Positions 21,604 to 41,419 of a stretch of 53,202 nucleotides of DNA are shown here, piece after piece. How positions within the stretch are numbered: position 1 is the stretch's first letter; every line of letters begins with the position of its first letter. This DNA comes from an uncultured Gammaproteobacteria bacterium (GTDB lineage: Bacteria; Pseudomonadota; Gammaproteobacteria; Arenicellales; JAANXG01): the NCBI GenBank assembly GCA_947259875.1, contig CAMYNX010000002.1, forward strand, positions 1 to 53,202. Direction: 5' to 3'. The notes beneath the pieces were generated by a model. That model saw only the letters and a list, made by a program, of their open reading frames with translations. It was not told the DNA's origin and made no database searches. The position numbers and the translations under genes were made by a program.

Positions 21604-21606
21604 CGA

Positions 21607-23801: not shown

Positions 23802-24037
23802 GACGCGACGGTCTCGCTCGAGGTCTGCGAGATCGCGTTTAACAGCTCCAGGGTCTTCTCCGCCTCGGCCGGATCGAGCCGCCCCAGAGCATAGCCCACA
23901 TGCACGATTACAAAATCTCCTATCGCAACATCGTCTACGAGCGCCAGCGAGATCTCCTTTTGAACACCATCGATCTCAATGATGGCGCGGTCATCATCGA
24001 GCATCTGGCTCACGCGCGCTGGTATGGCAAGACACAT
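23798..24037 (-). CDS. hypC: HypC/HybG/HupF-family hydrogenase chaperone
   Basis: MCLAIPARVSQMLDDDRAIIEIDGVQKEISLALVDDVAIGDFVIVHVGYAL. Confidence 0.95.
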   Translation of the reverse strand: MCLAIPARVSQMLDDDRAIIEIDGVQKEISLALVDDVAIGDFVIVHVGYALGRLDPAEAEKTLELLNAISQTSSETVAS

Positions 24038-24057
24038 ATCGATTACTCACTATACAT

Positions 24058-26349
24058 TCATGAATTTAACCGACCGGGCCCTGGGGTGTGCGCGGCAACC
24101 CATGCCTGGCCCAAACTGATAGCTCCGTCATTGGGCGGCAACCTGCGCGGCAGCAACGGCTTGAGGCCAATGTACTGCAACGATTTCAACAACCCAGCCG
24201 AGAGCACCTGGTTAAGGAAGCATCCCCCGGATAATGCGATCACGTGACAGCCGGTGTCCACCGCCGCCGACGCGATCCAGTGTGTCAACGCATCAATCAA
24301 GGTGCCGTGGAACAACTCTGCCCCGTGTTGCGCCTCCTGGTCAATCAGTTGCTCCAGTAGCGGCAACAAATCCAGCACACCGTTTTCGAGCCGCCAGCCA
24401 TCTTGCATCGCAGTGGGTTGCGACACCAATCCCTCCAGCACCATGGGCGCATGGCCTTCGAAGCCGGCATGCGGGACCACATCCAACAGGCCACAGGCCG
24501 CGTCGAACAGGCGCCCACAACTCGACGTACGCGGCGTGTTGATGTTTTTCTCCAGCATTTGCGCCAGCACTGCGGCGCCCGGCTGGTCGCTGTACCGAGA
24601 TGAAATCTCTGCGCCTTTGCCGAGCGCGTGGAGAGCCGCGGCCCCCATCCGCCAAGGTTGGCGGGCGGCGGTGTCGCCCCCGGGTTGCGGTAACTGTTTG
24701 AGGTGACCCACGCGCCGCCACTGCGCGCCATGCACCCACAGCAGTTCACCACCCCAGCTGTCCGCGTCGGGACCCAGCCCGAAGCCATCCAAGGCGACAC
24801 CCAGACAAGGCTCGTCAGCACAATGTTCCGCGGCGACGGCGGCAACATGGGCATGATGATGTTGCACCGCGACGGTGGCTATCCCCAGGTCCAGGGCGAA
24901 CCGGGTACTGGGGAAATCGGGATGAAGATCGTGCGCGACCGCACAGGGCTCGACTTCGAGTATGCACAACAGGTGGTGCACGGACTCTTCGAAGAAGCGG
25001 ATCGCCGGGGCGTTGTCCAAGTCACCGATGTGTTGGGACACAAACGCCTCGCGGCCACGGGTCACACAGATGGTATTGTTGAGGTATGCGCCGACGGCGA
25101 GTATCGGCGGCACCGGCCGCGCGAGCTTGATGGCCTCGGGGACGAAACCGCGCGCGCGGCGTACGAACGCGGGAGCGCCGTCGATGACCCGCATCACCGA
25201 GTCGTCGGCGCGAATGACGATGTCCCGATCGTGGGTAACGATGTGATCCGCGATCCCGGCGAGCCGTTGACGAGCCTCATCATTGCCGATGACCAGGGGC
25301 TCACCACCGGGATTGGCACTGGTCATGACCAACACCAGATCCTGCGCTGCGGTTAACCATTCGGCCTCGCGGGGACAACCAGCGGCATGATAAAACAGCA
25401 GAAGGTGTAGCGGCGTATACGGTAGCATCACACCAAGCCACGGCACGTCGGGTGCCACCGTCACGGGCAATTGTGCGCCACGCCGATGCGCCAGAACGAT
25501 AGGATGCGCTGGGTGTTGGAGAAGCGCTTCCCCGCAACCACCCAACTCCACCAGGCGTCGCGCCGAGGCGAGGTTGGCGAGCATCAACGCGAACGGCTTC
25601 TTATCCCGTTGTTTGAGTTGGCGCAGGCGATGGACGGCAGTTTCGTTGCGTGCATCGCAGGCCAAGTGAAACCCGCCTAGACCCTTGATCGCAACAATTT
25701 CACCGGCACCGAGCCGCGACACGATTTCCGCAACGTCGGTGTCGAGCTTTGGACCGCAGCTCGGACAGGCAATGGGCTCGGCGTGGAAACGCCGATCAAC
25801 CGGATCCTGATATTCGCAAGCGCATTGCCGGCACATCGCAAACTGCGCCATCGACGTATTGACGCGATCGTATGGAAGTTTATGTGTCAGCGTATAGCGC
25901 GGACCGCAGTTCGTGCAGTTAATGAATGGGTAGAGATAGCGCCGGTTGTTTGCATTGAACATCTCGCGCACACAATCATCGCATACCGGATAGTCCGCGG
26001 TGATTACGGTGGTGATTTTTCCCTCGCCGCTGGGGACCACGACAAAACTCGAATATTCGGTTGGGGTAAGACCGCATAGCTCGATGTCATCGATCCTGGC
26101 GAGCGGCGGACATTCGCTGCGCAATGCCTCCAAGAAAGCCTCTACGTATTGACCTTGCACATCGATCACCACGCCGTCTCCGTTGTTGCCCACCCAACCG
26201 GTCAAGCCGAAACGCCTGGCGAGACGGTATACGAAGGGGCGAAATCCAACCCCCTGTACCGCGCCGCGAACCTGGATCTGCCAACGCTTGGATGGGTCTA
26301 AATCCGCTACCGTCTTGGAGTCCACTAAAGTCACGGTATGTTCAATCAC
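24058..26349 (-). CDS. hypF: Carbamoyltransferase HypF
   Basis: Acylphosphatase domain VRGAVQGVGFRPFVYRLA, Zn-finger CDDCVREMF..C..C, YrdC-like and carbamoyltransferase domains. Confidence 0.96.
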   Translation of the reverse strand: MIEHTVTLVDSKTVADLDPSKRWQIQVRGAVQGVGFRPFVYRLARRFGLTGWVGNNGDGVVIDVQGQYVEAFLEALRSECPPLARIDDIELCGLTPTEYSSFVVVPSGEGKITTVITADYPVCDDCVREMFNANNRRYLYPFINCTNCGPRYTLTHKLPYDRVNTSMAQFAMCRQCACEYQDPVDRRFHAEPIACPSCGPKLDTDVAEIVSRLGAGEIVAIKGLGGFHLACDARNETAVHRLRQLKQRDKKPFALMLANLASARRLVELGGCGEALLQHPAHPIVLAHRRGAQLPVTVAPDVPWLGVMLPYTPLHLLLFYHAAGCPREAEWLTAAQDLVLVMTSANPGGEPLVIGNDEARQRLAGIADHIVTHDRDIVIRADDSVMRVIDGAPAFVRRARGFVPEAIKLARPVPPILAVGAYLNNTICVTRGREAFVSQHIGDLDNAPAIRFFEESVHHLLCILEVEPCAVAHDLHPDFPSTRFALDLGIATVAVQHHHAHVAAVAAEHCADEPCLGVALDGFGLGPDADSWGGELLWVHGAQWRRVGHLKQLPQPGGDTAARQPWRMGAAALHALGKGAEISSRYSDQPGAAVLAQMLEKNINTPRTSSCGRLFDAACGLLDVVPHAGFEGHAPMVLEGLVSQPTAMQDGWRLENGVLDLLPLLEQLIDQEAQHGAELFHGTLIDALTHWIASAAVDTGCHVIALSGGCFLNQVLSAGLLKSLQYIGLKPLLPRRLPPNDGAISLGQAWVAAHTPGPGRLNS

Positions 26350-26396
26350 AATGCCAGGTCAACCAGCCGCGGTCGGTCGCACCCGATGTAATATCC

Positions 26397-26810
26397 TCAA
26401 CGAGGGGTCGCCAGGCCCTGTTGTAAATAGTCGGCGAGCGCGGCGTCGTCTTGTTCGATATGTCCCAGTATCCCGTCCCGCAAGTTTTGCACAGTTGTCA
26501 ACATCCGGTCGCGGTCGCCATCCGCTAGCGATTCTTGTAGCGTGCCAATCCGCTCCATGAAGTACGTGTGCCGTTGTTCATGTTGCTCGTATCCCGGATA
26601 GGCATACATGCGCATCAGCAGCTGCTCCGACAGAAAGTGCACGCTGGTGTAGTCCATCAACTGCTTGAGAATCTCTGCGAGTTCCTCCGCAGATTGCTGC
26701 CGTGTCACCGCGTCGCCAAACGCGCTCAGCAATTTGATCTGCACGTCATGTTCGGCCTGCATGACATGCGTGGCTTGTAGCGGTGACGAATCCGCCGTTT
26801 TTGACGACAT
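26397..26810 (-). CDS. Bacteriohemerythrin
   Basis: MQAEHDVQIKLLSAFGDAV...MDYTSVHFLSEQLLMRMYAYPGYEQHEQRHTYFMERI...ILGHIEQDDAALADYL; internal start chosen at 26810. Confidence 0.82.
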   Translation of the reverse strand: MSSKTADSSPLQATHVMQAEHDVQIKLLSAFGDAVTRQQSAEELAEILKQLMDYTSVHFLSEQLLMRMYAYPGYEQHEQRHTYFMERIGTLQESLADGDRDRMLTTVQNLRDGILGHIEQDDAALADYLQQGLATPR

Positions 26811-27002
26811 TGGGGTTGCCTGGCTGTTCGGTGATCTGGCAGTATAGCCAAATCTGACATGCGCGGTAAGGTATTTGCCGAGGCCGCGTAGCGAAGATAC
26901 GTCTGGTCTGGGTTTCACGCCTGCTACACACACGGATGAAGTCTGCTGCGTCTCGGATTAGGGAGACAGGTAAGACTTTGACATATCAAGGCTAATCAAT
27001 CG

Positions 27003-27734
27003 ATGGTGAAGATTCGCTCTCGCGATTCAAATTTTGATTGTGTTACCTGCATCATGCGCAAACGCAGCGACTGGAGCGTACTGGGCCATGACGAGGTTAC
27101 GCTGCTCGCCGGCGGTCAATCGAGCTACCGCTACAGCGCGGGTGAATCGGTATACTCGATGGGTGAGACCGGCGACGGCGTCTACTGCGTGTGTTCAGGA
27201 ACAGTAGCCATCCGCAGGTTGGACGCCGAGGGCAACTCGGTGTTGCTGCAACTCGCGTACCCGGGCGATACATTGGGCTACGAAGCAGTGCTGACCGGTG
27301 AACCGCATCGCTGCAACGCCGAGGCGTTGGGCCCAGCTAACGTGTGTCACATAAACACCCCAACCGTTAAGACGTTGCTCGATCAAAATCCCGGCCTGGG
27401 CCTGCAGTTTCTACGCCGGACTGTGGCAAGCCTGGACGATGCTCAGGATAAATTGGTGCATCACGCGACTCTGTCCAACCGCGCCAAACTGGCACACTTG
27501 CTGCTCATTCTCATGGACCGCTACGGCCGCCGCACCGCAGACGGAACCAGCACCTTGTATCTACCGGTGTCACGCCGCGATCTGGCGTCGATGATCGGCG
27601 CCCGGCACGAGACGGTGTCACGAATCATCGGTCGCTTTGAGACCGATGGCATCGCCTACTTTTCCGGCCGCTCGGTGCGCATCCCGCAGGTCAACGCGCT
27701 GGTGGAAGAAATCCGCCCGCAGCTCGTGGGCTGA
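27003..27734 (+). CDS. Crp/Fnr-family transcriptional regulator, Cys-rich
   Basis: cNMP-binding-like domain and HTH RRDLASMIGARHETVSRIIGRFE; cysteines at residues 13,16,62,64,104,115. Confidence 0.92.
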   Translation: MVKIRSRDSNFDCVTCIMRKRSDWSVLGHDEVTLLAGGQSSYRYSAGESVYSMGETGDGVYCVCSGTVAIRRLDAEGNSVLLQLAYPGDTLGYEAVLTGEPHRCNAEALGPANVCHINTPTVKTLLDQNPGLGLQFLRRTVASLDDAQDKLVHHATLSNRAKLAHLLLILMDRYGRRTADGTSTLYLPVSRRDLASMIGARHETVSRIIGRFETDGIAYFSGRSVRIPQVNALVEEIRPQLVG

Positions 27735-27789: not shown

Positions 27790-27853
27790 TGCACTCCTGG
27801 GGGGGGGTTCGTAGATTTGCGCGACCACCAACCAATACAGAAGAGGCACGTTG

Positions 27854-29026
27854 ATGGATGCGATCAACGACACCAGCATTGACTTCTCCAACTTTACGAA
27901 ACAAGAACTCGATAGTTATGAAGGGTCGTTGGGTGGTCTGACGCGCCGGGAATTTTTGAAATACTGTACCGCTATCGCCGCCACCATGGGGCTACCCATG
28001 ACCGCCGGTCTGCGCATCGCCGAAGCGGCAACCACCAAGACCCGTCCGCCGGTAATTTGGCTGCATGGCCAGGAATGCACCGGGTGCACCGAATCGTTGC
28101 TACGGTCATATCATCCCACCCTCGAGGCCCTGATCCTCGACACCATCTCGCTGGATTATCACGAGACCCTGTGCGCGGGTGCGGGTAAACAGGCAGTGGC
28201 CCACAAACGCAAGGTCATGGAGGAATTCCATGGCAAATACGTACTGGTCACCGAAGGCGGAACCCCGACCAAGGACGGCGGTATCTACTGTAAGGTCGGC
28301 GGCATACCCCACGTAGACCACGTGCGCGAGGCGGCCGAGGGCGCCGCCGTGATCATCGCCATCGGGTCGTGCGCCTCCTGGGGCGGTATCCAAGCGGCGC
28401 ACCCGAATCCCACCGGCGCCAAGGCCACCCATGAAGTGCTGCCCGGTAAGACCGTCATCAACATCCCCGGTTGTCCGCCCAATCCCTACAACTTTCTGTC
28501 CACGGTGATGTATCTGTTGACCTTCGCCAAGCCCCCCGAGCTGGACCAGGAGAACCGCCCCAAATTCGCCTACGGCCGTCTGGTTCACGAAAACTGTGAG
28601 CGCCGGCCGCACTTCGACGCCGGGCGCTTTGCCCTCGAGTTCGGCGATTACGGCCACCGGCAGGGCTTCTGCCTGTACAAGCTCGGCTGTAAGGGACCCG
28701 AGACCTATGCGAACTGCCCATCCATCGGCTTCGGCGACCTCGGATTCGGCGCATGGCCCGTCGGCACCGGTCATCCGTGCTTTGGCTGCACGATGAAGGA
28801 GACCGGTTTTAACAAACCACTGCACGCGCTCGCCGATGTAAAGACCTTCTCGCCACCCACTGCGTTCCCCGCCGTGGACGCTGACAAAGGTGAAGGGATC
28901 TCACCCGCAGCGGCGGCGGTTGCCGCCGGCGTTGGCGGCCTGGTAGTGGGCGCCGCGGCCACGGCAATGCGCAATATGGGTGGTGCTGCGGACAGCGGCG
29001 ACGCACCCGACGATCAAGACGCATAG
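27854..29026 (+). CDS. hybO: [NiFe]-hydrogenase small subunit (Tat signal, C-terminal anchor)
   Basis: TRREFLKYC Tat motif; WLHGQECTGCTESLLRSYHP; KLGCKGPETYANCPS; GHPCFGCT; C-terminal hydrophobic helix. Confidence 0.95.
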   Translation: MDAINDTSIDFSNFTKQELDSYEGSLGGLTRREFLKYCTAIAATMGLPMTAGLRIAEAATTKTRPPVIWLHGQECTGCTESLLRSYHPTLEALILDTISLDYHETLCAGAGKQAVAHKRKVMEEFHGKYVLVTEGGTPTKDGGIYCKVGGIPHVDHVREAAEGAAVIIAIGSCASWGGIQAAHPNPTGAKATHEVLPGKTVINIPGCPPNPYNFLSTVMYLLTFAKPPELDQENRPKFAYGRLVHENCERRPHFDAGRFALEFGDYGHRQGFCLYKLGCKGPETYANCPSIGFGDLGFGAWPVGTGHPCFGCTMKETGFNKPLHALADVKTFSPPTAFPAVDADKGEGISPAAAAVAAGVGGLVVGAAATAMRNMGGAADSGDAPDDQDA

Positions 29027-29037
29027 GAGGGTATGTT

Positions 29038-30024
29038 ATGGATAAGAGCCGCAGGCGTTTTATCCAGGGTGCTGCCGGCGCCATCGCCGGTGCGGTGGCG
29101 CCGGTTGAATCGACGCAGGCGCTGCGCCGCGAAAATAAACAACTGCCCCCGAATGCCTTGGGCATGTTGTACGACTCCACCTTGTGCATCGGCTGCCGTG
29201 CCTGCGTCACCGCTTGCAAGGAGGCCAACGATGTGCCGGTGGAACAGCCCGCTCATTTGCGTGAATGGAATGTGGGGGTTTGGGACTCGGGGGAAGACAT
29301 CTCCGGCAAGACCCTGAACACGATTCGGGTGTATACCGACGGCACAAAAGAGCGCAAGGATCGCGAGGAAAACGGCTACGCGTTCATTAAACGTCACTGC
29401 CTGCACTGTGTGGATCCATCCTGCGTGTCGGTGTGCCCGGTGAGCGCGATGCTCAAGGACGCGGATACCGGCATTGTCACCCACAATCCGGACGCTTGCA
29501 TCGGATGCCGTTACTGTGTCTACGGATGCCCATTCGGGGTACCGCAGTATCAGTTTGACGAGACCTTCGGCAAGATCGCGAAATGCGAGTTCTGCGAACA
29601 CCTGCAGAAAAAGGGCGAGATCCCGGCCTGCTGCGACGTGTGCCCGACGGGGGCGTCTTTGTTCGGGCGGGTCGACGATCTCCAGCAAGAAGCGGAACAA
29701 CGCCTATCCAAACAGCCCGGCGATCGCTATGAATTTCCACGCGGGCGCCTGGGCGATGATCGCCCGACCCACGAGGCGGCGATCCCCGAATATCAGTCGC
29801 ATGTTTACGGAGTGAAAGAGGCGGGCGGCACGCAGATCCGCTATCTCACCGGCGTCCCGCACCAAAAGCTGGGATTGCCCAAACTGCCCGACGAGTCCTA
29901 CGCCTCGTTGTCAGAAGGCGTACAACACACCCTATACAAGGGGATGATCGCACCGCTGGCACTCCTGGGCGGACTCATCTACCTCGCTCGTCGCAGCACC
30001 AAGCAGCACGAGGATGAGGAATAA
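29038..30024 (+). CDS. hybA: Hydrogenase 4Fe-4S ferredoxin subunit HybA (Tat signal)
   Basis: SRRRFIQGAAGA; four-cluster ferredoxin: CIGCRACVTACKEAN, CLHCVDPSCVSVCPVSA, CIGCRYCVYGCPFGVP, C..C..CCDVCPTGA. Confidence 0.94.
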   Translation: MDKSRRRFIQGAAGAIAGAVAPVESTQALRRENKQLPPNALGMLYDSTLCIGCRACVTACKEANDVPVEQPAHLREWNVGVWDSGEDISGKTLNTIRVYTDGTKERKDREENGYAFIKRHCLHCVDPSCVSVCPVSAMLKDADTGIVTHNPDACIGCRYCVYGCPFGVPQYQFDETFGKIAKCEFCEHLQKKGEIPACCDVCPTGASLFGRVDDLQQEAEQRLSKQPGDRYEFPRGRLGDDRPTHEAAIPEYQSHVYGVKEAGGTQIRYLTGVPHQKLGLPKLPDESYASLSEGVQHTLYKGMIAPLALLGGLIYLARRSTKQHEDEE

Positions 30025-30029
30025 GCACA

Positions 30030-31172
30030 ATGGCACAATCCACGCATCAACCCCTCGGCGGTAAGTTACTGACCAAGCCATTTATGTTGTTCGCGCTATT
30101 GTTTCTGATAGCGGTGTACTTTCTCGCCACGCGTTTCATGTTCGGTCTTGGGTCGGTGACCCATCTCAACGGCGGCTATCCCTGGGGAATCTGGGTCGTC
30201 GTCGACGTCATAATCGGCACCGCGTTTGGTTGTGGCGGGTTCGCCATGGCACTGCTGGTCTACATCTTCAACAAGGGTGAATACCACCCGCTGATGCGGC
30301 CCGCCTTGCTCGGTGGTCTGTTTGGCTACACCCTGGGTGGCATGGCGGTGATATTCGATCTCGGGCGTTACTGGAACTTCTACAACCTGCTGTTGCCCTG
30401 GTATGCGCAACCCAGCTCGGTGATGTTCGAGGTGGCACTGTGCGTCATGGCCTATATCCTGGTGCTGTGGATTGAGTTCTCGCCCACGTTTCTCGAACGT
30501 CTTGGCCTCACCAATGCCAAACAAAAACTGAAACGCTTCATGTACATCATCATTGCGCTTGGTGTGTTGTTACCCACCATGCACCAGTCCTCGCTGGGCT
30601 CGCTGCTACTGGTGATGGGATCGCAGCTATCACCCCTGTGGTTCACCGCATGGCTGCCACTGTGGTTTCTGCTCACCGCCATCGCCATGGGTTACGGCAT
30701 CGTCATCCTGGAGTCGACCTTGATCACCAACGCCTTCAAGCTGCCGTCCGAGCAGCGCATCTTGAGTAAGCTGTCGCCGATCGTCGGCTGGCTGCTGGCG
30801 GCGTTCGTGGTGCTGCGCCTCATTGACCTGTTGGCACACGGGCACGTCGCCCCGATGTTTGCCGCGGATTTGAACGCATTCATGTTTTGGCTCGAAATAC
30901 TGGTGTTTGTCATGCCGACAATCATACTGATCTCTCCGGCGCGGCGCACGGATCAGCGGCAGATGTTTCTCGCCGCGCTGCTGCTGTTGGCGGCCGGATC
31001 TCTGTACCGCATCAACGCCTTCTTGGTGGCGTACGATCCCGGAAACGGCTGGAGCTATTTTCCGTCGGCGCCGGAACTCATGGTGACCATCGGTGTAATC
31101 GCCCTCGAGATCATGCTTTATCTGGTCTTCGTCAAGAAACTTCCGGTGTTGCATGGCACCCGGCCCGCCTAA
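30030..31172 (+). CDS. hybB: HybB integral membrane (NrfD/PsrC-like) subunit
   Basis: Polytopic; GGYPWGIWVVVDVIIGTAFGCGGFAMALLVYIFNKGEYHPLMRPALLGG. Confidence 0.94.
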   Translation: MAQSTHQPLGGKLLTKPFMLFALLFLIAVYFLATRFMFGLGSVTHLNGGYPWGIWVVVDVIIGTAFGCGGFAMALLVYIFNKGEYHPLMRPALLGGLFGYTLGGMAVIFDLGRYWNFYNLLLPWYAQPSSVMFEVALCVMAYILVLWIEFSPTFLERLGLTNAKQKLKRFMYIIIALGVLLPTMHQSSLGSLLLVMGSQLSPLWFTAWLPLWFLLTAIAMGYGIVILESTLITNAFKLPSEQRILSKLSPIVGWLLAAFVVLRLIDLLAHGHVAPMFAADLNAFMFWLEILVFVMPTIILISPARRTDQRQMFLAALLLLAAGSLYRINAFLVAYDPGNGWSYFPSAPELMVTIGVIALEIMLYLVFVKKLPVLHGTRPA

Positions 31173-31187
31173 TTAAGGGAGGCAAAC

Positions 31188-32894
31188 GTGACACGAATTA
31201 CTATAGATCCCATAACCCGTATCGAGGGTCATTTACGCATCGACTGTGAAGTCGAAAACGGCAAGGTCACCAATGCCTGGGCATCGGGGCAGATGTGGCG
31301 CGGTATCGAACTCATCCTGCAGGGCCGCGACCCGCGCGATGCGTGGATCTTCACCCAGCGGATCTGCGGAGTATGCACGACCGTGCACGCCATCACCTCA
31401 GTACGCGCGGTGGAGAACGCCCTCGACCTCGAGGTGCCGTTGAATGCGCAGTACATCCGCAACATGATCATGGCCGCCCACGGCGTTCACGACCACATCG
31501 TGCATTTCTACCACCTCACCGGTCTGGACTGGGTGGACATCGTCTCCGCGCTCAAGGCGGATCCGGTGGCGACCGCCAAGCTCGGCGCGAGTTTGTCGGA
31601 TTACCCACACAACGGCGTGCCAGAGATTCGCAAGGTCCAGGAAAAGCTCGCGGCGTTTGTGAATACCGGCCAGCTCGGCGTGTTCGCGAGCGGTTATTGG
31701 GGCCACCCGGCGATGCGCTTGCCCCCGGAGGTCAATCTGCTGGCGGCAGCACACTACCTGCAGGCCCTGGAGTATCAGCGGGCGGCGAATAAGATCGTGA
31801 CCATCCTCGGCTCCAAGACCCCGCACATTCAGAATCTGGCGGTGGGTGGCGTTGCTAATCCCATCAATCCGGAAAGCCAGTCCACGCTCACCTTGGAGCG
31901 CTTGTTTGCGATCAAGGCGGAGATCGATAAGCTCGGCGAGTTCGTGAATGAGGCATTGATACCGGATGTCGGCGCGGTCGGCGCGCTATACGCGGAGTGG
32001 GCGCAATACGGCGCCGGCGTCACCAATTATCTCTCGGTGCCCGACATGCCGCTCGACACCAAGGGCACTCAGTTCGAACTGCCTGGCGGCTATATCGACG
32101 GCGGCGACGTAGCAACGTTCAAGGAGATCTCCGGGTACCAGGACCAATACTTTCGCGACGGCGTCAAAGAAAGTGTCAAGCACGCCTGGTATGAATATCA
32201 GGGCGGCGACCGCGCGCTGCATCCCTATGACGGTCAAACCAATCCGAAATACACCGACTTCCAAGACGAGGGTAAGTATTCCTGGGTCAAGGCACCGACA
32301 TTTTACGACAAGCGCGCCCAGGTCGGGCCGCTTGCCAATGTGCTCGCGATGTACGCCGCCGGCCACGAACCCACAAAACGTCATCTTACCCGTTTGTTGT
32401 CCATCGCGAGCACCGTCGCCGGTTCGGAGATTCCACTCGCTGCGCTGCATTCAACGCTCGGCCGCGTAGCGGCGAGGGCGGTGCGCGCTGCGGTGTTGTA
32501 CGAGTCGCTGCAAAATCAATGGCAACTGTTGATGGACAATATTGCCAACAGGGACTTCGATACCTTTAACCGACCGGTGTTTCCCAAGGGCGAAGTACGT
32601 GGGTTTGGTTTTCACGAGGCGCCGCGGGGCACCCTCTCGCACTGGACGGTAATCAACAACGGCAAGATTGCCAATTACCAGGCGGTAGTACCCACCACGT
32701 GGAACGCCGGACCACGGGACGACGACGAACAGTTGGGACCCTATGAGGCGTCCCTGCTGGACAACCCGGTGGCCGACGCCGAATTGCCTTTGGAGGTGTT
32801 GCGCACCGTGCACTCATTCGACCCGTGTCTGGCCTGCGCCATACATATGGTTGACACTAAGAACCGGCCAATTGTTCGTGTGAAGGCGGCGTAA
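31188..32894 (+). CDS. hybC: [NiFe]-hydrogenase large subunit
   Basis: L1 RICGVCTTVHAITSVRAVENAL; L2 DPCLACAIH followed by 15-aa extension MVDTKNRPIVRVKAA. Confidence 0.97.
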   Translation: MTRITIDPITRIEGHLRIDCEVENGKVTNAWASGQMWRGIELILQGRDPRDAWIFTQRICGVCTTVHAITSVRAVENALDLEVPLNAQYIRNMIMAAHGVHDHIVHFYHLTGLDWVDIVSALKADPVATAKLGASLSDYPHNGVPEIRKVQEKLAAFVNTGQLGVFASGYWGHPAMRLPPEVNLLAAAHYLQALEYQRAANKIVTILGSKTPHIQNLAVGGVANPINPESQSTLTLERLFAIKAEIDKLGEFVNEALIPDVGAVGALYAEWAQYGAGVTNYLSVPDMPLDTKGTQFELPGGYIDGGDVATFKEISGYQDQYFRDGVKESVKHAWYEYQGGDRALHPYDGQTNPKYTDFQDEGKYSWVKAPTFYDKRAQVGPLANVLAMYAAGHEPTKRHLTRLLSIASTVAGSEIPLAALHSTLGRVAARAVRAAVLYESLQNQWQLLMDNIANRDFDTFNRPVFPKGEVRGFGFHEAPRGTLSHWTVINNGKIANYQAVVPTTWNAGPRDDDEQLGPYEASLLDNPVADAELPLEVLRTVHSFDPCLACAIHMVDTKNRPIVRVKAA

Positions 32895-32913
32895 CCGAAG
32901 CGGGGGCAAGCAC

Positions 32914-33414
32914 ATGAACGTGTTGCTGCTGGGCATCGGAAACATCTTACTTCGTGATGAGGGCGTCGGCGTTCGCGTCGTCGAGTCACTGGCCAAGCGC
33001 TACACCCTGCCACAGGAAGTCGAGGTCCTCGATGGCGGAACCTCGGGCATGGATCTTTTGTACACCATCTCCGGTCGCGACGTGATGATTGTGTGCGACG
33101 CAATCAAAGCCGACGCGCCGCCTGGGACCGTCATTCAAATCACCGGTGATGACGTGCCCGCATTTCTCCAGACCAAGCTCTCGCCCCACCAAGTGGGTTT
33201 ATCCGATGTTCTCGCTACATTGAAGCTGTTGGACGAACTCCCCCCGGTGGTGAGCATCGTTGGCATCGTACCCGAAGACCTCAGTTTAGGAACCGAACTT
33301 TCTCCTACCGCCGCCGGCGCTGTCGACCATGCGCTGACGATGATCATAGATGAGTTGGCCACGGTAGGGATTGATGTCGGACAACAATCATTAACAGCCC
33401 CGGAGGTCGTTTGA
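32914..33414 (+). CDS. hybD: Hydrogenase maturation endopeptidase (HybD/HyaD)
   Basis: LLLGIGNILLRDEGVGVRVVESLAKRYTLP...EVLDGGTSGMDLLYTI. Confidence 0.94.
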   Translation: MNVLLLGIGNILLRDEGVGVRVVESLAKRYTLPQEVEVLDGGTSGMDLLYTISGRDVMIVCDAIKADAPPGTVIQITGDDVPAFLQTKLSPHQVGLSDVLATLKLLDELPPVVSIVGIVPEDLSLGTELSPTAAGAVDHALTMIIDELATVGIDVGQQSLTAPEVV

Positions 33415-33417
33415 GCA

Positions 33418-33681
33418 ATGTGCCTGGCGATTCCATCCAAAGTCATGGAAGTTAAGGACGATCGAGTGATCGTCGAGCGTTATGGGGAACGCCTCGAGGT
33501 GAATACCGGATTGATGACCGAACCCTTGACGGTGGGAGACTATGTGGTACTGCGGGCCCGCACCCATGTAGTCGCTAAAATGGATCCGCAAGCAGCGCGG
33601 GAGGCGTTGTTGCTTTTCAACGAACTCGCCGAACGACTAGCTGACGATATCGAGTTCAAATCAGACCATGAGGCACCATGA
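33418..33681 (+). CDS. Second HypC/HybG-family chaperone
   Basis: MCLAIPSKVMEVKDDRVIVERYGERLEVNTGLMTEPLTVGDYVVLRA. Confidence 0.93.
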   Translation: MCLAIPSKVMEVKDDRVIVERYGERLEVNTGLMTEPLTVGDYVVLRARTHVVAKMDPQAAREALLLFNELAERLADDIEFKSDHEAP

Positions 33682-33682
33682 T

Positions 33683-34183
33683 ATGACCGACCAGGAACAT
33701 TCAAACCTAGCTCCTCGCGTGGTTGAGATAGTTGAGCGTTTTCAAAAAATCGGTGAACTCAATATGAAGGGCCTGCCTGTTTACAACGAAAACCTCCAGG
33801 TGGAAGCAATCGGATTCCACCCCTATGGCGACAATTATCTTGGCGTTCTGGTCACTCCGTGGTTTATGAACGTTATCCTGCTGCCGCGTGACAAAGCGCC
33901 GATGGACTATTCGTTAGTCGCATCACCCACCGATGAAACTCTACCCGCCGGGACATGGCAGTTCATGTTTGGTGGTGACGACGTGATGGGACTGTATAAG
34001 AGCTTGTCATTACACTCGCCGATGTTCGCCTTTAACACTCAGGAACTCGCAAGGATCGAGGCCAAACGACGTTTGAACTCGTTGATGACGCCGCCCAATA
34101 CCATTACCGCGAGTGCTACACAGCAACGGGCTCCGGAGAATAGCAGCCGACGTGCTTTTTTGCGGGGCCAAGTGAACGGCTAA
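33683..34183 (+). CDS. hybE: HybE/HupJ-type hydrogenase assembly chaperone
   Basis: GLPVYNENLQVEAIGFHPYGDNYLGVLVTPWFMNVILLP...GTWQFMFGG; C-terminal SRRAFLRGQVNG; ATG at 33683 chosen as start (track ORF starts 33668). Confidence 0.88.
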   Translation: MTDQEHSNLAPRVVEIVERFQKIGELNMKGLPVYNENLQVEAIGFHPYGDNYLGVLVTPWFMNVILLPRDKAPMDYSLVASPTDETLPAGTWQFMFGGDDVMGLYKSLSLHSPMFAFNTQELARIEAKRRLNSLMTPPNTITASATQQRAPENSSRRAFLRGQVNG

Positions 34184-35380
34184 ATGAGCGGCACCCGCGA
34201 AACAACCGGTGGCATCGAAGGCCGCCTACGTATCCAGGTCAAGGTCGATGCCGGTATGGTGAGTAATGTCCAACTCGATTCACAACGTCCGGTGAACAGC
34301 GGTGCGTTGCTCGAGGGCCGCTCGGTCGGGGACGCCTTGGACCTGCTGCCACGGATATTCAGCCTGTGTGGTGTGGCGCAAACCGCCGCCGGCCTGGTGG
34401 CGGTGGAACACGCATTACGGGTCTCACTTACCCCACCGCAGATCGCCGCACGCCAAATGCTGGTGGCTGCGGAGGCCCTGGAACAGACTGTTTGGCGCAT
34501 TACCGTGGATTGGCCGACCTGCCTGGGCATGCAACCCGATGTGGCCGGCATACGCGATCTACGGCGGCTGCTCCGCGGGCTTGGGATGCATATGTTCAAA
34601 GCCATACCGTGGAACCGGGTCGGCGGTAGTCATCTGGTCCCCGACCCAATCGAGCTCGTCAAGACCATCGATGCGGTAGCGCAACACGCGGCATGGATTC
34701 TTTTCGGCGACGCCGCGCCGCAATTAGATGACCACAGATCCTTTGAACGTTGGCTTGGCCGGCAACACCAACCGGGGCCCGCGGCGTTGGATTATGTGCG
34801 TGACCAGGGACTCGCGGCATTCGGCAACAGCCCGGTGGATCTTTTGCCGACGGCGCCCGACACCGGCTTCTTTGCGCAGCAGTTAGCCAAAGATGTTGAT
34901 TGGTCGTTTTGCACCCACCCACACTACCACGGCAACATCTCTGAAACCGGCGCATTGTCGCGCCTGGTGGACCATCCACTGGTCAGTGAGTTGCGGGACC
35001 GGCATGGGAATGGGCTGCTCACCCGCCTGGCGGCAAGACTCGTTGAGACCAACCATCTGATCTCCAAGATGCGGTCCTGTGTGGATGACGTGTCCGATGA
35101 TATGGGCACAACAACCAATAACGAAAGCGGCCAAGGCATCAGTGTGATTGACACCGCCCGGGGAGTGTTGGTGCATTGGGTAGAAATCACGGACAACATA
35201 GTCAATCGTTATCGAATTCTGGCCCCCACGGAATGGAATTTTCATCCCCGCGGTCCGTTGATTCAGGGCTTGGAGGGTGTGAACGCCCAGGTGGGTGAGG
35301 CACTGGACAAAAACGCGGGGCTGCTGATCAACGCGTTGGACCCCTGCGTCGGATACGAGCTGAACATCGTGGAGCACTAG
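34184..35380 (+). CDS. HupK/HoxV-like hydrogenase expression/formation protein (degenerate large-subunit paralog)
   Basis: GIEGRLRIQVKVDAG; FSLCGVAQTAAG at L1 position; C-terminal DPCVGYELNIVEH at L2 position, stop immediately after. Confidence 0.88.
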   Translation: MSGTRETTGGIEGRLRIQVKVDAGMVSNVQLDSQRPVNSGALLEGRSVGDALDLLPRIFSLCGVAQTAAGLVAVEHALRVSLTPPQIAARQMLVAAEALEQTVWRITVDWPTCLGMQPDVAGIRDLRRLLRGLGMHMFKAIPWNRVGGSHLVPDPIELVKTIDAVAQHAAWILFGDAAPQLDDHRSFERWLGRQHQPGPAALDYVRDQGLAAFGNSPVDLLPTAPDTGFFAQQLAKDVDWSFCTHPHYHGNISETGALSRLVDHPLVSELRDRHGNGLLTRLAARLVETNHLISKMRSCVDDVSDDMGTTTNNESGQGISVIDTARGVLVHWVEITDNIVNRYRILAPTEWNFHPRGPLIQGLEGVNAQVGEALDKNAGLLINALDPCVGYELNIVEH

Positions 35381-35382
35381 CA

Positions 35383-35724
35383 ATGCACGAGATGAGTCTC
35401 AGTCAGGGCATGTTGGAGATTATTCAGGAGCAAGCGGCCGTCGATGGTTTTCGAAGCGTCAAAGTTGTGCGCCTTGAAATCGGCGCGTTGTCGTGCGTTG
35501 AGCCAGAGGCGTTGGGATTTTGTTTCGATAGCGTCACCCGGGGCACCGTTGCCGAAGGGGCGACGCTGGATATCATCAAGGTTCCTGGCCACGCTTGGTG
35601 CTGGAGATGTTCGCGGGTCGTTGACATCGAGCGGCACGGCGATCCTTGCCCGGACTGCTCCGGTTACCAAATGCAGATGCGAACCGGAAATGAAATGAAG
35701 ATAAAAGCGTTGGAGGTAGCGTAA
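35383..35724 (+). CDS. hypA: Hydrogenase nickel incorporation protein HypA
   Basis: [18 protein letters not shown]; Zn motif CWRCSRVV...[11 protein letters not shown]. Confidence 0.95.
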
Positions 35725-36539
35725 TGTGTACGACCTGTGGATGCGGCACGGACGAAGTCAAGATCACCAGCGGCCAACAGCCCCAACACGCCCACGCTCA
35801 TCATCACCATCATGACGGTCACCACGCACATGACCACGGCGCCGAGACGCGGCTGTTGCAGGTGGAACAGGACCTGTTGAGCAAGAACAACAGTTATGCC
35901 GCCGCGAATCGCCATTTTTTCTCACAGCGCGGCGTATTCGCCGTCAACCTCATGTCGAGTCCGGGTTCGGGAAAAACGACGCTGTTGGTGAATACCGTGC
36001 GTTCGCTAAAAGAGCGTTATCCCATCGCAGTCATCGAGGGCGACCAGCAGACCAGCCAAGACGTCGAGCGCATACGATCCGCCGGGGTTCCAGGTATCCA
36101 AATCAACACCGGAAAGGGCTGCCATCTAGACGCGCACATGGTCGGCCACGCCCTGGAACGGCTCCCAGTCGAGAATGAAAGCGTGCTGTTCATTGAGAAT
36201 GTAGGCAACCTGGTTTGTCCCGCTGCGTTCGACTTGGGCGAGACCCGTAAGGTGGTGGTCATGTCAGTTACCGAGGGCGAGGACAAACCTCTCAAGTATC
36301 CCGACATGTTTGCGGTATCGGATTTGATGTTGATCAATAAAATTGATCTGCTGCCCCATCTGAATTTTGACACCAACCGCTGTATCGATTACGCGCGACG
36401 GGTGAATCCCAAGATCGAGATTTTGCAACTATCCGCCCTCAGCGGCGACGGTTGTGATGTGTGGTCGGACTGGCTCAGCTCAGGACTCAACACCGCGCGG
36501 GCGGCCCGCAAGGCGGCGGCGTGCGATCAGACCGCGTGA
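35724..36539 (+). CDS. hypB: Hydrogenase nickel incorporation GTPase HypB
   Basis: [11 protein letters not shown]; His-rich [19 protein letters not shown]-loop [11 protein letters not shown]. Confidence 0.96.
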
Positions 36540-36579
36540 ATTCTATTATCGACGAAACTTAGACATGAAGGAGTCAACA

Positions 36580-36831
36580 ATGAAACGGCTTAGTCAATTC
36601 ATCGGCATGGGCTTGCTCATCTCATCGCTGAGCGCGCCGACGTTTGCACACCCCGGGCATGTGCTGAGCGGTGGATCGATCGCCGCCCCTGAGCATTTTT
36701 TCTGGGACATGCACCATTTGCTGCCGCTCATCGTCGTAGCCCTGTTGATGGCGGTCTTGCTTCGATTTTGGCGCGGGAGAACCACTCACGGTACCACGTT
36801 TCGCGATTGCTTAACAGGACGCCGTCGTTGA
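36580..36831 (+). CDS. Small exported/membrane protein with predicted N-terminal HPGH after signal cleavage
   Basis: MKRLSQFIGMGLLISSLSAPTFAHPGHVLSGGSIAAPEHFFWDMHHLLPLIVVALLMAVLLRFWRGRTTHG...; aaggag RBS. Confidence 0.65.
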   Translation: MKRLSQFIGMGLLISSLSAPTFAHPGHVLSGGSIAAPEHFFWDMHHLLPLIVVALLMAVLLRFWRGRTTHGTTFRDCLTGRRR

Positions 36832-36962
36832 CGTTACTGATGTGATAACGGCATTTGTCGCTCAGCGGTTGAAGTCGACGCGGCCAACGCAGACATGCCA
36901 CCGGCGATGTGCAAATTGATTTGTTGCCAGTTACAAGTTTTGGAAGTGCGGGAGTTAGATTC

Positions 36963-37388
36963 ATGAACGCGAAAACACGCATGGCTATAGCATTGTCCAT
37001 GATGTTGAGCCTGTTATGGAGTTGCTCAACGGACACCCCATCGCGCAGCGTGCGCACCGAGGGGCAATACCGGTACGCCGCCCAACCCCAGGGCCATGAT
37101 GGTCCCGCGAGCGGATGTGTCGTGTGCCACAGCCTGGAAAAAGACGGACCCCTTCGTGTTGCGCCCACCCTGTGGGGAATTGTCGGCGCCGAAAAAGCTA
37201 GATTTAAATGGTATGGTTATTCGACGGCACTCGCTACGGCAGAAGGCGAGTGGAGTGAAAAAGATTTGGACGAGTACTTGACCGACCCGGATAAGTTCCT
37301 CCCCGGTACTAAAAAGACCCTGATCGGCATAGCGGACGCGGGACAACGTACCGAACTCATCGATTTTCTCAAGACCCTTCGCGACTAA
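36963..37388 (+). CDS. c-type cytochrome, probable lipoprotein
   Basis: MNAKTRMAIALSMMLSLLWSCSTD lipobox-like; CVVCH haem motif; PDKFLPGTKKTLIGIAD. Confidence 0.85.
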   Translation: MNAKTRMAIALSMMLSLLWSCSTDTPSRSVRTEGQYRYAAQPQGHDGPASGCVVCHSLEKDGPLRVAPTLWGIVGAEKARFKWYGYSTALATAEGEWSEKDLDEYLTDPDKFLPGTKKTLIGIADAGQRTELIDFLKTLRD

Positions 37389-37411: not shown

Positions 37412-37435
37412 GGCCGGTTGCAATACCGGTTTTTT
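37412..37435. terminator. Intrinsic terminator after hydrogenase operon
   Basis: CCGGT-tgcaat-ACCGG + T6. Confidence 0.75.
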
Positions 37436-37470: not shown

Positions 37471-39282
37471 CTAATCCAATAGCAGAGCCGGTAACCACAG
37501 GGTGAGTGCCGGCACATAGGTGATCAGCAACGCGGTCATCAGCAGAATGATCAGGTAAGGGAATGTAGAACGATATATGTGTGCCAACGGCTTCTTGAAA
37601 CGGTACGCGGAAAGAAACAGATTCACGCCCACTGGCGGCGTGAGGTATCCCAACTGCAAGTTGGCGAGGAAGATCACCCCTAGGTGCACGGGGTCCACCG
37701 CATAAGCAGCCGCCATCGGGGCGATTAGCGGAACAATGACGATAATCGCCGAATAGATATCCATGAAAGCACCGGCAACGATCAATACGATATTGACCAC
37801 CAATAAGAATAAATATGGAGACTGAATGAATTGTTGGACCCAGTCCAGAGCATGCATAGGTATCTGCGCGATAACAAGATAGTTGGTAAATCCCAGCGCG
37901 ACGCCTAGAATGATCATGAACCCACCGACCATCGTCGCGCTTTCTACCATCACTCGGATGAGATCCCGGGTGAGCCTGACCTCCCGGTGAATGACGCATG
38001 CAATGAGAACCGCATAGAGCACGGTCAATGCAGCAGCTTCCACCAGCGTCGCAAATCCTCCGAAGAGGCCGACTAGGATCACCAGCGGCAACATGATCTC
38101 CCACTTCGCTTCCCGCAATGCGACATAAAGCTCGCGCGAGCGAAACGGTGTTTGGGTTGCTCCACCCTTCCAGCCACACCACGCGCCATAGCCAGCGACC
38201 ACCAGAATGAGCAGAATTCCCGGCAGCAACCCGCCGATAAATAGCCGTTCCAAATCGAGTTCTGCATAGTACGCGTACAGGATCACCGGCAAACTGGGTG
38301 GGAGAAGAACGCCAATGGATCCAGAAACCGTCACCAGACCGATCGATTCTTGTTCTTTGTAGCGCGCCCTAACGAGCATCGGCAGTAGTACACCCCCCAT
38401 CGCCAGGATGGTGATGCCCGACGCGCCGGTAAGCGGTGTGAAGAATGCCAACACCAGCGTGGTAACGATAGCGAGACCACCCGGCATCCAACCAACCAAT
38501 GCGGAAAACAAACGCAGCAGCCGCTTGCTGGACCCACCCTCGGCCAACACATAACCGGCGACGGTGAACAGCGGGATGGCCGGTAACATCGCCTCCGTGC
38601 TCAAGCGATAGGTCTCTCCGGGAACCGCCGAAATCGGCGTGCCCTCGTGCCAGAACATCAACAACGCCGCGCCACCGATGACCGCATAGATCGGCATACC
38701 CAATGCCATACCAAGCAACAGCACCAACCCGACGCCCCACATCATCGCGGGTCCCGGTGCATCAAAAAGAAACCCAAGCGCCGCCGGTATCACCAAACCG
38801 AGGGCGGTTAGGGAGCGGCCCCGCCAATCCGCCCCTGCATGCCAAATCAAGCGGCCGACAATCAGCGCGAACCCTAGAGGCATAATCAAGGAAAACATCC
38901 AAACCGGGATCCCCCAGGAGACCATGCCTCCATATTTGTAATCGACCCCGACAAGTTGAATACTTGCCAACAAAAGACAACCGGTTATTCCGACGCCAAG
39001 GGCCGAGGTCAGCACCCGCGCACGCCGCTGCCAAGACGGTGGGAGAAACTCGCCGGTCGACAATGCGAGCAATCGGTCTGAGCGGGCCGCGAGGGCCGCA
39101 CCGAGAAAGGTAATCCAAAGCGTCAAGTGCTGTACCACTGAGATAGAACCCGGGATTCCACCACCCAAAAACTCCCGGGTGCTGAATTCGGCAAGCGGTA
39201 ACACCGACATGATCGTCAATACGACCACCGATACTATATCTTCCGAACGGCGAAGCGCCGCCGTTAGCTTAGTTATTCCCAT
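37471..39282 (-). CDS. TRAP transporter fused permease (DctQ-DctM)
   Basis: N-terminal DctQ-like 4-TM segment then DctM; GLVLLLGMALGMPIYAVIGGAALLMFW...PPVGVNLFLSAYRF. Confidence 0.93.
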   Translation of the reverse strand: MGITKLTAALRRSEDIVSVVVLTIMSVLPLAEFSTREFLGGGIPGSISVVQHLTLWITFLGAALAARSDRLLALSTGEFLPPSWQRRARVLTSALGVGITGCLLLASIQLVGVDYKYGGMVSWGIPVWMFSLIMPLGFALIVGRLIWHAGADWRGRSLTALGLVIPAALGFLFDAPGPAMMWGVGLVLLLGMALGMPIYAVIGGAALLMFWHEGTPISAVPGETYRLSTEAMLPAIPLFTVAGYVLAEGGSSKRLLRLFSALVGWMPGGLAIVTTLVLAFFTPLTGASGITILAMGGVLLPMLVRARYKEQESIGLVTVSGSIGVLLPPSLPVILYAYYAELDLERLFIGGLLPGILLILVVAGYGAWCGWKGGATQTPFRSRELYVALREAKWEIMLPLVILVGLFGGFATLVEAAALTVLYAVLIACVIHREVRLTRDLIRVMVESATMVGGFMIILGVALGFTNYLVIAQIPMHALDWVQQFIQSPYLFLLVVNIVLIVAGAFMDIYSAIIVIVPLIAPMAAAYAVDPVHLGVIFLANLQLGYLTPPVGVNLFLSAYRFKKPLAHIYRSTFPYLIILLMTALLITYVPALTLWLPALLLD

Positions 39283-39339
39283 GGAGATCGTCGGGCGTAT
39301 TGTCTTTGGTTAGCTCTACCGCCGCTTGCGCTTTGTTTC

Positions 39340-40386
39340 TTATTGACCGCTATGCTCAGCCCGGTCTGAACTCTTGAACTGCTCATGCAGGCGCATGATC
39401 TTGGCGAATAATTGCGGATGCTGCTTGGCGCACTGCAGTAGCGGGTACGCCTCGTCGACACCGGTCCGCCACAGTTCACTGGCGCGTTTGTCGAGCTTGA
39501 CGATCTGCAGTCCACGTGTCTGCATCTCGCGGATCGCATCTTCCTCTGATTTGCGGATCTGCTCACGTAGCCGTTCGCCAATACTATGCACAGCGTTAAT
39601 CAATAGCGGACGAAACTTTTCAGGGATCCGTTCCCAGGCCTCGAGATGAATCACCGTTGCCGCGTTCAAAGGGGCCCAACGCAGATCGGTCATATAGTTT
39701 GCCGTCTGATAACTTCGATCCAGCAAGGCGAATAACGGCGGCACATCGATGGCTTCGATCAGCCCGGTTCGCAATGCGGTAAGCATATCAGTCTCGTCGA
39801 GCGGAACTACGCGAAACCCAAAATACTTGAACAGCCGCTCTGATTCGGGATGACCGGCCGCAGTCCATAGTCGCAATTTCTTGAGATCATCCGGCGTTCT
39901 CACCGGTTGCTTCGCAAAGAAATACACCCAACCGGCCTCCGCCCAATTAAGAATCTTGACTTGTCTGGCCATCAGCTGCTTTTCGAGATCGCCTTGAATC
40001 GCGGATCGAACGTAGTCGAGTTCTTCATAAGACTCGAATAGCAGGGGCATATTTAGGCAGTCGATGCTACTGTCAATCTGTGGCAGGCCGGCACCAGATA
40101 TGGCCACCGCATCCAGACCGCGGCGCTGCATCTTACGCACCATCTCAGTCTCGCCACCGAGCACACCTCCGGCATAGATCCGTAACTCCACCCCGCCATC
40201 GGACTCATCGTGCCACTGTTGTCGGACGCGCAGCAGCGCATCGTGCCATGCCGATCCTTCCGGAGCGATGGTCCCCAACTTGATGATGACCTTGGCGGAT
40301 GCGGGTACCGACACCAGGCCGCAAATTAGCATTACCAGAAACAGTACCAATACACGCAGCGCCCTCAATCTTGCCGTATCCGACAT
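39340..40386 (-). CDS. TRAP transporter substrate-binding protein DctP
   Basis: Signal peptide then KVIIKLGTIAPEGSAWHDALLRVRQQW...GGVLGGETEMVRKMQRRGLDAVAISGAGL. Confidence 0.92.
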   Translation of the reverse strand: MSDTARLRALRVLVLFLVMLICGLVSVPASAKVIIKLGTIAPEGSAWHDALLRVRQQWHDESDGGVELRIYAGGVLGGETEMVRKMQRRGLDAVAISGAGLPQIDSSIDCLNMPLLFESYEELDYVRSAIQGDLEKQLMARQVKILNWAEAGWVYFFAKQPVRTPDDLKKLRLWTAAGHPESERLFKYFGFRVVPLDETDMLTALRTGLIEAIDVPPLFALLDRSYQTANYMTDLRWAPLNAATVIHLEAWERIPEKFRPLLINAVHSIGERLREQIRKSEEDAIREMQTRGLQIVKLDKRASELWRTGVDEAYPLLQCAKQHPQLFAKIMRLHEQFKSSDRAEHSGQ

Positions 40387-40402
40387 GATCGAGCTTTGAT
40401 CG

Positions 40403-41419
40403 TTACAGAAACAGTTCATCAATTCTGCCTTTGAGCCACTTCGCTCGGCGTTGCGCGAGGGCGTTGATAAGCCGATTTTGCGGTTGTTCGTCGATGTCAA
40501 CCCTTAGGGCCTTATCTAGCAACACGAGAAATTCCTCCCGATTCTGGTTCGGTATCGATGCCGCCTCGGCATAGGCGACGTATAGACTCGCGCGCCTACC
40601 CTGCGAGAGCTGCAACGCCCGCTGATAATGCCGGCGAATCACATTTTTGTCGGCGTGAATGCGGCCGGCCGCCGCCAGGGTCACTTGGAACTCGTGCAGT
40701 GTGCCTGCATCCCAGCCCTCGTCCAACTCCAGGGCACGGCCGAGCATGGCGTCGACTTCCGGCAACCGGGCCAACAATGCAGCGTCATGCCGCGATACCG
40801 AGATTGCCAAACCCAACGCCGCCGCAGACCAGTAGAGTACCGGCACCACCCGTGCCGCATCCTCCGATAACACCTCATGTACCACCTGTTGTGGGTCCTC
40901 ACTAAGCCGCACCGCGAAACCAGGATATCTCAACTCTAACGCGCGCAATGCGTAATCGAGTGCCCGAAGATATAACCTGCGTGCCCGACGACGAAGTTCC
41001 AGCGCCGCGTCGAGGTCATCGGGAGCCAATTGATCAGCCTCGAAATGAACATAAGCATAAGAATAAAGAACAAATCCACGACTGGCCGTGAGCAGCAGAC
41101 CGTCGTGTCGCGGGGATTGTGACAACAAGCTCTCGACAAGCTTCAAACTAAACGGCAAGGCATCCCCTACAAGGATGAGATCGTCATCACGCTCGTAGAC
41201 GGAATCTCCAGAAGCCAACAGATCGCCAACAGTGTTCACCGTAAAGCGCTTGATGGAACACCCGGCTGCCAGCACGATGGCAATCATCATGGCAACGAAG
41301 ACGTAGGTGCGGTGGAGGCAATGCTGGCCCCGCGCGGCGTTCGACTTTACGGTCGGGAAATCTTTGGAGGGCAAGGACTGAGCCCGATCGTGGGCCTTCG
41401 TTGTCAGTTTGGGATCCAC
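40403..41419 (-). CDS. TatT-like TRAP-associated TPR lipoprotein
   Basis: Lipobox VLAAGC; GDALPFSLKLVESLLSQSPRHDGLLLTASRGFVLYSYAYV; adjacency to dctP/dctQM. Confidence 0.85.
   Translation of the reverse strand: MDPKLTTKAHDRAQSLPSKDFPTVKSNAARGQHCLHRTYVFVAMMIAIVLAAGCSIKRFTVNTVGDLLASGDSVYERDDDLILVGDALPFSLKLVESLLSQSPRHDGLLLTASRGFVLYSYAYVHFEADQLAPDDLDAALELRRRARRLYLRALDYALRALELRYPGFAVRLSEDPQQVVHEVLSEDAARVVPVLYWSAAALGLAISVSRHDAALLARLPEVDAMLGRALELDEGWDAGTLHEFQVTLAAAGRIHADKNVIRRHYQRALQLSQGRRASLYVAYAEAASIPNQNREEFLVLLDKALRVDIDEQPQNRLINALAQRRAKWLKGRIDELFL

Follow-up and report, generated by a model that had tools for sequence, protein, structure and literature searches.

Genes of the hydrogenase island

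The window, by which we mean the whole stretch of 53,202 nucleotides analysed here, contains a hydrogenase island that reads, on the plus strand from 27851 to 37388, hybO, hybA, hybB, hybC, hybD, hypC, hybE, a HupK-like gene, hypA, hypB, a small HupE-like ORF and a cytochrome c gene. The genes that together characterise a Hyd-2-type locus are all found: HybO, the Hyd-2-type small subunit (27851–29026; best match NF007779), the iron-sulfur subunit HybA (29038–30024), the NrfD-type quinone-reactive membrane subunit HybB (30030–31172) and the [NiFe] large subunit HybC (31188–32894). HybA (NF008134) and HybB (NF008133) exceed the cut-offs of the E. coli NCBIfam equivalogs, while HybO and HybC match hydrogenase 2 best and score below the respective cut-offs. 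There follow the maturation endopeptidase HybD (32914–33414), HypC (33418–33681, assigned from the ORF list and synteny), the chaperone HybE (33668–34183; PF11939), a HupK-like paralogue of the large subunit (34184–35380), HypA (35383–35724), HypB (35724–36539) and a small membrane ORF (36568–36831), the weak HupE/UreJ-like N-terminus of which is below the Pfam cut-off. In this small ORF the signal sequence is followed by an AHPGH motif; the ORF is conserved in four other loci of the same genus and was seen in that genus only.

Upstream of hybO, on the same strand, is a CRP/FNR-like regulator (27003–27734) that has a CxxC at its N-terminus and a single cysteine further on; by eye, the full set of four cysteines of FNR is absent. 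Divergent from the regulator and the hyb operon, genes for HypX-like, HypE-like, HypD, HypC-like, HypF and hemerythrin-like proteins occupy the minus strand (19870–26933), and a hemerythrin-like gene is also found near hyb genes at three other loci (L039, L042 and L120). The proximal-cluster motif of HybO is CTGC, which we take not to be the extra-cysteine, O2-tolerant form. The HypX-like, hemerythrin-like and CRP/FNR-like genes would fit a life with some oxygen. On the far side of the island, a convergent TRAP transporter is encoded on the minus strand (37471–41419), consisting of a fused DctQ-DctM, DctP and a TAtT component; DctM and DctP genes also come after the hydrogenase island in four other genomes of the genus.

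The cytochrome gene (P0001; 36963–37388, plus strand, with its ATG at 36963 and its stop codon at 37386–37388) begins 131 nt past the HupE-like ORF. Strand and gene order bear out the claim of an earlier note on this DNA that it is the final gene of a Hyb-type operon; a terminator-like hairpin lies 3' of it (37412–37431, plus strand), this being a weak signal, as two such hairpins were found where 1.4 are expected. The protein of 141 residues has a signal sequence ending in a lipobox-like LLWSC (residues 17–21, 37011–37025; identified by eye) and a single haem-attachment motif, CVVCH (residues 52–56, 37116–37130), in which His56 is the proximal ligand, corresponding to His18 of yeast cytochrome c. 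It scores 20.0 bits against Pfam Cytochrom_C, for which the gathering score is 21.3, and the NCBIfam scan gave no fitting equivalog for it.

A lysine at the site of the axial methionine

When solved structures were searched with phmmer, variants of yeast iso-1 cytochrome c were the top matches (E 8.5e-19), and class I matches reached about 1e-18 with the single sequence and 3e-27 with a profile. Residues 50–138 align with the yeast protein without a gap, so that within the aligned region yeast numbering is that of the window protein minus 38. Lys118 (AAG, 37314–37316) thereby falls on the axial Met80 (ATG) and Lys117 on Lys79. The loop in question, residues 112–123, reads FLPGTKKTLIGI. The open frame and the gapless alignment thus confirm what the earlier note had read from the letters, namely a CVVCH cytochrome with lysine where the axial methionine is expected.

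Lysine occupies the ligand column in all 27 full-length family members, which represent two family-level lineages and one other genome, and CxxCH is equally constant (27/27). Outside the family the column is methionine in each of 41 aligned class I homologues and in 11 of 11 further homologues from across the phylum, so lysine was found in 0 of these 52 (41 aligned and 11 read). The phylum and plasmid searches returned many c550-type homologues, and the 11 counted are the phylum matches for which DNA was fetched. The family encodes its lysine by AAG in 16 cases and AAA in 10, not counting the window, and with both codons in use it is the residue that is conserved, not the DNA. The ligand column is one of 24 invariant columns out of 106 in a family whose pairwise identity averages 64%, and among six cytochrome sequences of the same genus dN was 0.02–0.28 while dS ranged from 0.2 to saturation. 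Since all 27 related proteins keep the lysine, the substitution looks selected, as in a low-potential or switchable redox carrier, and not like a random mutation. Of the two lysines in the TKK stretch, only Lys118 is conserved: residue 117 (position 79) varies freely, being K, N or T in orthologues from the same family as the window protein.

No other residue appears to have taken the place of the methionine. The histidines, methionines, cysteines, tyrosines and lysines conserved in at least 20 of the 27 members are Y38, C52, C55, H56, K60, K78, Y84, Y86, Y105 and K118, and a conserved substitute methionine or histidine for the distal site does not occur among the 27 aligned sequences; a second methionine there was the observation that the earlier note had named as fatal to its proposal. 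By sequence, then, the family has what would be expected of a His/Lys-ligated cytochrome, with a lysine at the ligating position and no competing methionine or histidine.

The remainder of the pocket is that of a class I cytochrome c. In yeast numbering, H18, P30, Y48, W59, Y67 (Y or F), P71, P76 and T78 are retained, and the fold, the CxxCH and the Trp59/Tyr67/Pro71/Thr78 pocket are shared with yeast iso-1 cytochrome c, Paracoccus c552 and bacterial c550. A domain-only AlphaFold2 model, built without haem from 69 sequences, has the class I fold (pLDDT 90.1) and a TM score of about 0.8 to both the Paracoccus c552 and the yeast protein; an earlier run with 28 full-length sequences (pLDDT 55) was discarded. 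The protein thus has the CxxCH near the N-terminus of the domain and the fold of the class, and lacks the distal methionine of the PG(T)xM loop. It further differs from class I cytochromes in having alanine for Arg38, an invariant Lys40 and isoleucine or leucine for Phe82, and position 52 is leucine. Alanine at the Arg38 site (Ala76, 37188–37190 in the window) was found in 26 of 27 members, as compared to arginine in 34 of 41 outside homologues. Lys40 (Lys78, 37194–37196) is family-specific and is present also in a methionine-bearing sister from the Burkholderiales. With both single-sequence and profile searches the nearest solved sequence was 1cig, a yeast variant with alanine at 38 and isoleucine at 52. 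Substitutions of this kind give yeast cytochrome c a lower potential.

Linkage of the cytochrome to the hydrogenase

In all seven genomes of the window's lineage the cytochrome gene accompanies hyb genes, and in one of them (G011) its reading frame and hybE share four bases. Among second-lineage genomes it adjoins a CRP/FNR-like gene in 19 of 19; ten of these have hybO on the same stretch and 15 have hyb or hyp genes there, and the remaining four loci lie on short contigs or at the ends of contigs, or belong to genomes with hyb elsewhere. Across 39 genomes of this second family, 17 have the cytochrome and a close HybC, 2 the cytochrome only, 4 HybC only and 16 neither. Presence thus agrees in 33 of 39 (Fisher p=1.4e-5, a value that is optimistic because the 39 genomes are related). 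The tie between cytochrome and hydrogenase is strongly supported by this conserved synteny and co-occurrence. There are exceptions: the cytochrome gene is unlinked to hyb in G186, where HybC is on another contig, and in G466, and hyb operons of the same type occur without it in G482 and G470. A further arrangement was seen in G007 (L121, 10836–13454, minus strand), where HybC (78%) directly follows the CRP/FNR-like gene; there is no Lys-cytochrome, and no hybO, hybA or hybB match lies between the two genes.

The mode of anchoring differs between the two lineages. The lipobox-like motif noticed in the window protein is shared throughout its own lineage, in which Cys21 is invariant in 7 of 7 members (LLWSC, LLWGC or LLLGC, by eye), and it is absent from the other main lineage, where there is a hydrophobic N-terminal signal or anchor instead. 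Some N-termini of the latter (L072–L089) have ASA-like cleavage motifs.

Origin of the lysine cytochromes

Within the genus of the window, five other genomes encode orthologues with Lys118, as does one genome from a second genus of the family; identities are 56–96%. Scanning GTDB genomes for the pattern brought in three MAGs, one from the Competibacteraceae, a related one from the Proteobacteria and one from the Burkholderiales. A search of a class sample, extended to relatives of one match, gave 19 genomes of one family, including the Competibacteraceae-labelled contig G490, as well as the further lineage G186. Nearly all source sequences are draft genomes, many of them MAGs, and the family has been sampled, not exhausted.

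The Burkholderiales member (L042/L116) has methionine at the ligand site and yet shares Ala76, Lys78 and the PA and VV signatures; its gene and a hybOABC operon are divergently arranged. The tree places it as sister to the whole set of lysine members, the joint clade having support of 100/92, and the lysine members form one group (87/67) recovered in 88% of bootstrap trees. Because this nearest sister, itself at a Hyb locus, retains the methionine, a single Met-to-Lys origin is likely. The simplest history, with an order of changes read from a tree with few columns, would be that linkage to the hydrogenase came first, followed by loss of Arg38 and gain of Lys40, and then by the exchange of methionine for lysine through one ATG-to-AAG change. 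Alternatively, the Burkholderiales line may have reverted to methionine.

Proposed function and alternative explanations

Of the possible explanations, we favour one to which we would give an even chance: that the protein is a membrane-anchored, His/Lys-ligated, low-potential electron partner of the Hyd-2-type hydrogenase. It would be a periplasmic monohaem class I cytochrome c with the haem iron held by His56 and, as predicted sixth ligand, Lys118. The H2 couple lies at about -410 mV and His/Met cytochromes at roughly +250 mV; judged by precedent, amine ligation together with the loss of Arg38 would bring the midpoint to about -150 mV. Such a potential, between those of H2 and the quinones, would permit the haem to accept electrons from the iron-sulfur chain of HybO/HybA, in a side path beside HybB that may bypass or buffer the quinone route. 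The precedents are yeast cytochrome c, the potential of which is +262 mV in the methionine form and about -145 mV when lysine is the ligand (PMC12188557), and the His/Lys haem of TsdA, with reported potentials of -171 and -129 mV (PMC6879331). Together with the alignment and the invariance of the lysine, they give good support to the Lys-ligated, low-potential haem suggested in the earlier note. An extra electron outlet for the hydrogenase, also suggested there, is plausible but unproven.

Several observations count against this proposal. The window encodes both HybA and HybB intact, so quinone reduction can do without the cytochrome, and no downstream electron acceptor was identified for it. 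The N-terminal anchors are unlike between lineages, and the unlinked genes and cytochrome-free hyb operons described above likewise weigh against it.

The family resembles known systems in part. In alkaline or engineered yeast cytochrome c a lysine of the same loop also binds the haem and lowers its potential, but there Lys73 or Lys79 displaces the methionine at high pH or after mutation, with Met80 still in place, whereas the family has its lysine natively at the methionine position (PMC12188557). Haem 2 of TsdA from Allochromatium vinosum is likewise a natural c-type haem of low potential with a distal lysine. TsdA, however, is a dihaem thiosulfate dehydrogenase in which Lys208 lies beside Met209, which takes over on reduction, whereas the family is monohaem and has no methionine to switch to (PMC6879331). 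Nor does the window protein, with one CxxCH and no other cysteine in its domain, have the two haems and the cysteine ligand on haem 1 that mark TsdA. Desulfovibrio cytochrome c553 is a monohaem partner of a periplasmic hydrogenase in a gene context that differs from that of the family, and both it and ActE of alternative complex III are His/Met ligated. ActE, with one haem c, is the partner of an NrfD-type membrane complex (PMC8076601), again in a different gene context. E. coli hydrogenase-2 (HybOABC) has the same structural and maturation genes as the window operon, but its subunit table lists no cytochrome c (PMC8076601).

Thus His/Lys haems and class I cytochromes c are known, and what appears to be new is a native lysine at the Met80 site in a hydrogenase-linked clade. 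We found no earlier description of a hydrogenase-linked Lys cytochrome in the open-licence literature. According to the TsdA study, few His/Lys haems are known so far, and what purpose the lysine serves there is yet to be determined (PMC6879331). Here evolution itself has made the exchange, in the best-studied of haem pockets, and the methionine-bearing sister is a natural control; with H2 oxidation as a clear functional context, the role of lysine as a haem ligand becomes directly testable. We suggest, with rather less than even confidence, that this is a natural monohaem class I clade in which methionine was permanently replaced by lysine after the tie to Hyd-2 was formed, which would provide a dedicated periplasmic partner, either low in potential or ligand-labile, and with it another path for electrons in a hydrogenase regarded as feeding quinone alone. 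The finding points to a haem partner, so far unrecognised, in some Hyd-2 hydrogenases.

A sensor or gate based on redox or ligand switching is unlikely in our view. A labile Lys118 would open the ferrous haem to O2, NO, CO or sulfide, and the cytochrome would report or buffer oxidant near an O2-sensitive hydrogenase and not serve bulk electron transfer. Known His/Lys haems are indeed reported to have, as a rule, a labile lysine (PMC6879331), and the hemerythrin-like and HypX-like genes of the island and the CTGC motif of HybO, presumably not the O2-tolerant form, are in keeping with such a role. So is the CRP/FNR-like gene, upstream of hybO in the window and next to the cytochrome in every second-lineage member, but this regulator is cytoplasmic while the cytochrome is periplasmic. 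The cytochrome lacks any sensor or output domain and the rest of its pocket retains an electron-transfer architecture; despite the conserved neighbour, the sensor role proposed earlier receives no positive sequence support from the protein itself.

It is quite unlikely that the cytochrome is a maturation or reactivation factor, exchanging electrons with the periplasmic hydrogenase so that oxidised [NiFe] sites are reactivated or its assembly is completed. Maturation genes do often adjoin it (it comes after hypB in the window, and is near hypB/hupK/hypA or hypA/hypB/hypF at several second-lineage loci), and the gene of the Burkholderiales relative, divergent from hybO, is beside hupK. Maturation, however, is mostly cytoplasmic and needs no periplasmic haem, and the hyb operons of the same type that have no cytochrome speak against such a requirement.

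We also think it quite unlikely that the haem is five-coordinate, or ligated by water or hydroxide, with Lys118 facing away and offering its positive charge for docking or for binding of an anion or sulfur substrate. A free lysine is protonated at neutral pH, and ligation by Lys118 is itself deduced, but mere charge would not require a lysine strictly at position 80 while the alternative ligand positions 72, 73 and 79 vary. Moreover, lysines of this loop readily bind haem once methionine ligation weakens (PMC12188557), and the gas- or sulfur-binding haem of the earlier note finds no positive support in the sequence.

It is extremely unlikely that the cytochrome has simply lost its ligand by neutral drift or decay, and we reject this explanation, as it is contradicted by the lysine and intact CxxCH of all 27 aligned members, a dN far below dS and the conserved synteny. 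Decay does occur in a relative, G006, which reads TKN and was rejected as a family member as the CxxCH half is missing. Its genome is without a close HybC, and of the cytochrome gene no more than the 3' half persists there (L008, 1498–1700, minus strand), evidently as a decaying copy.
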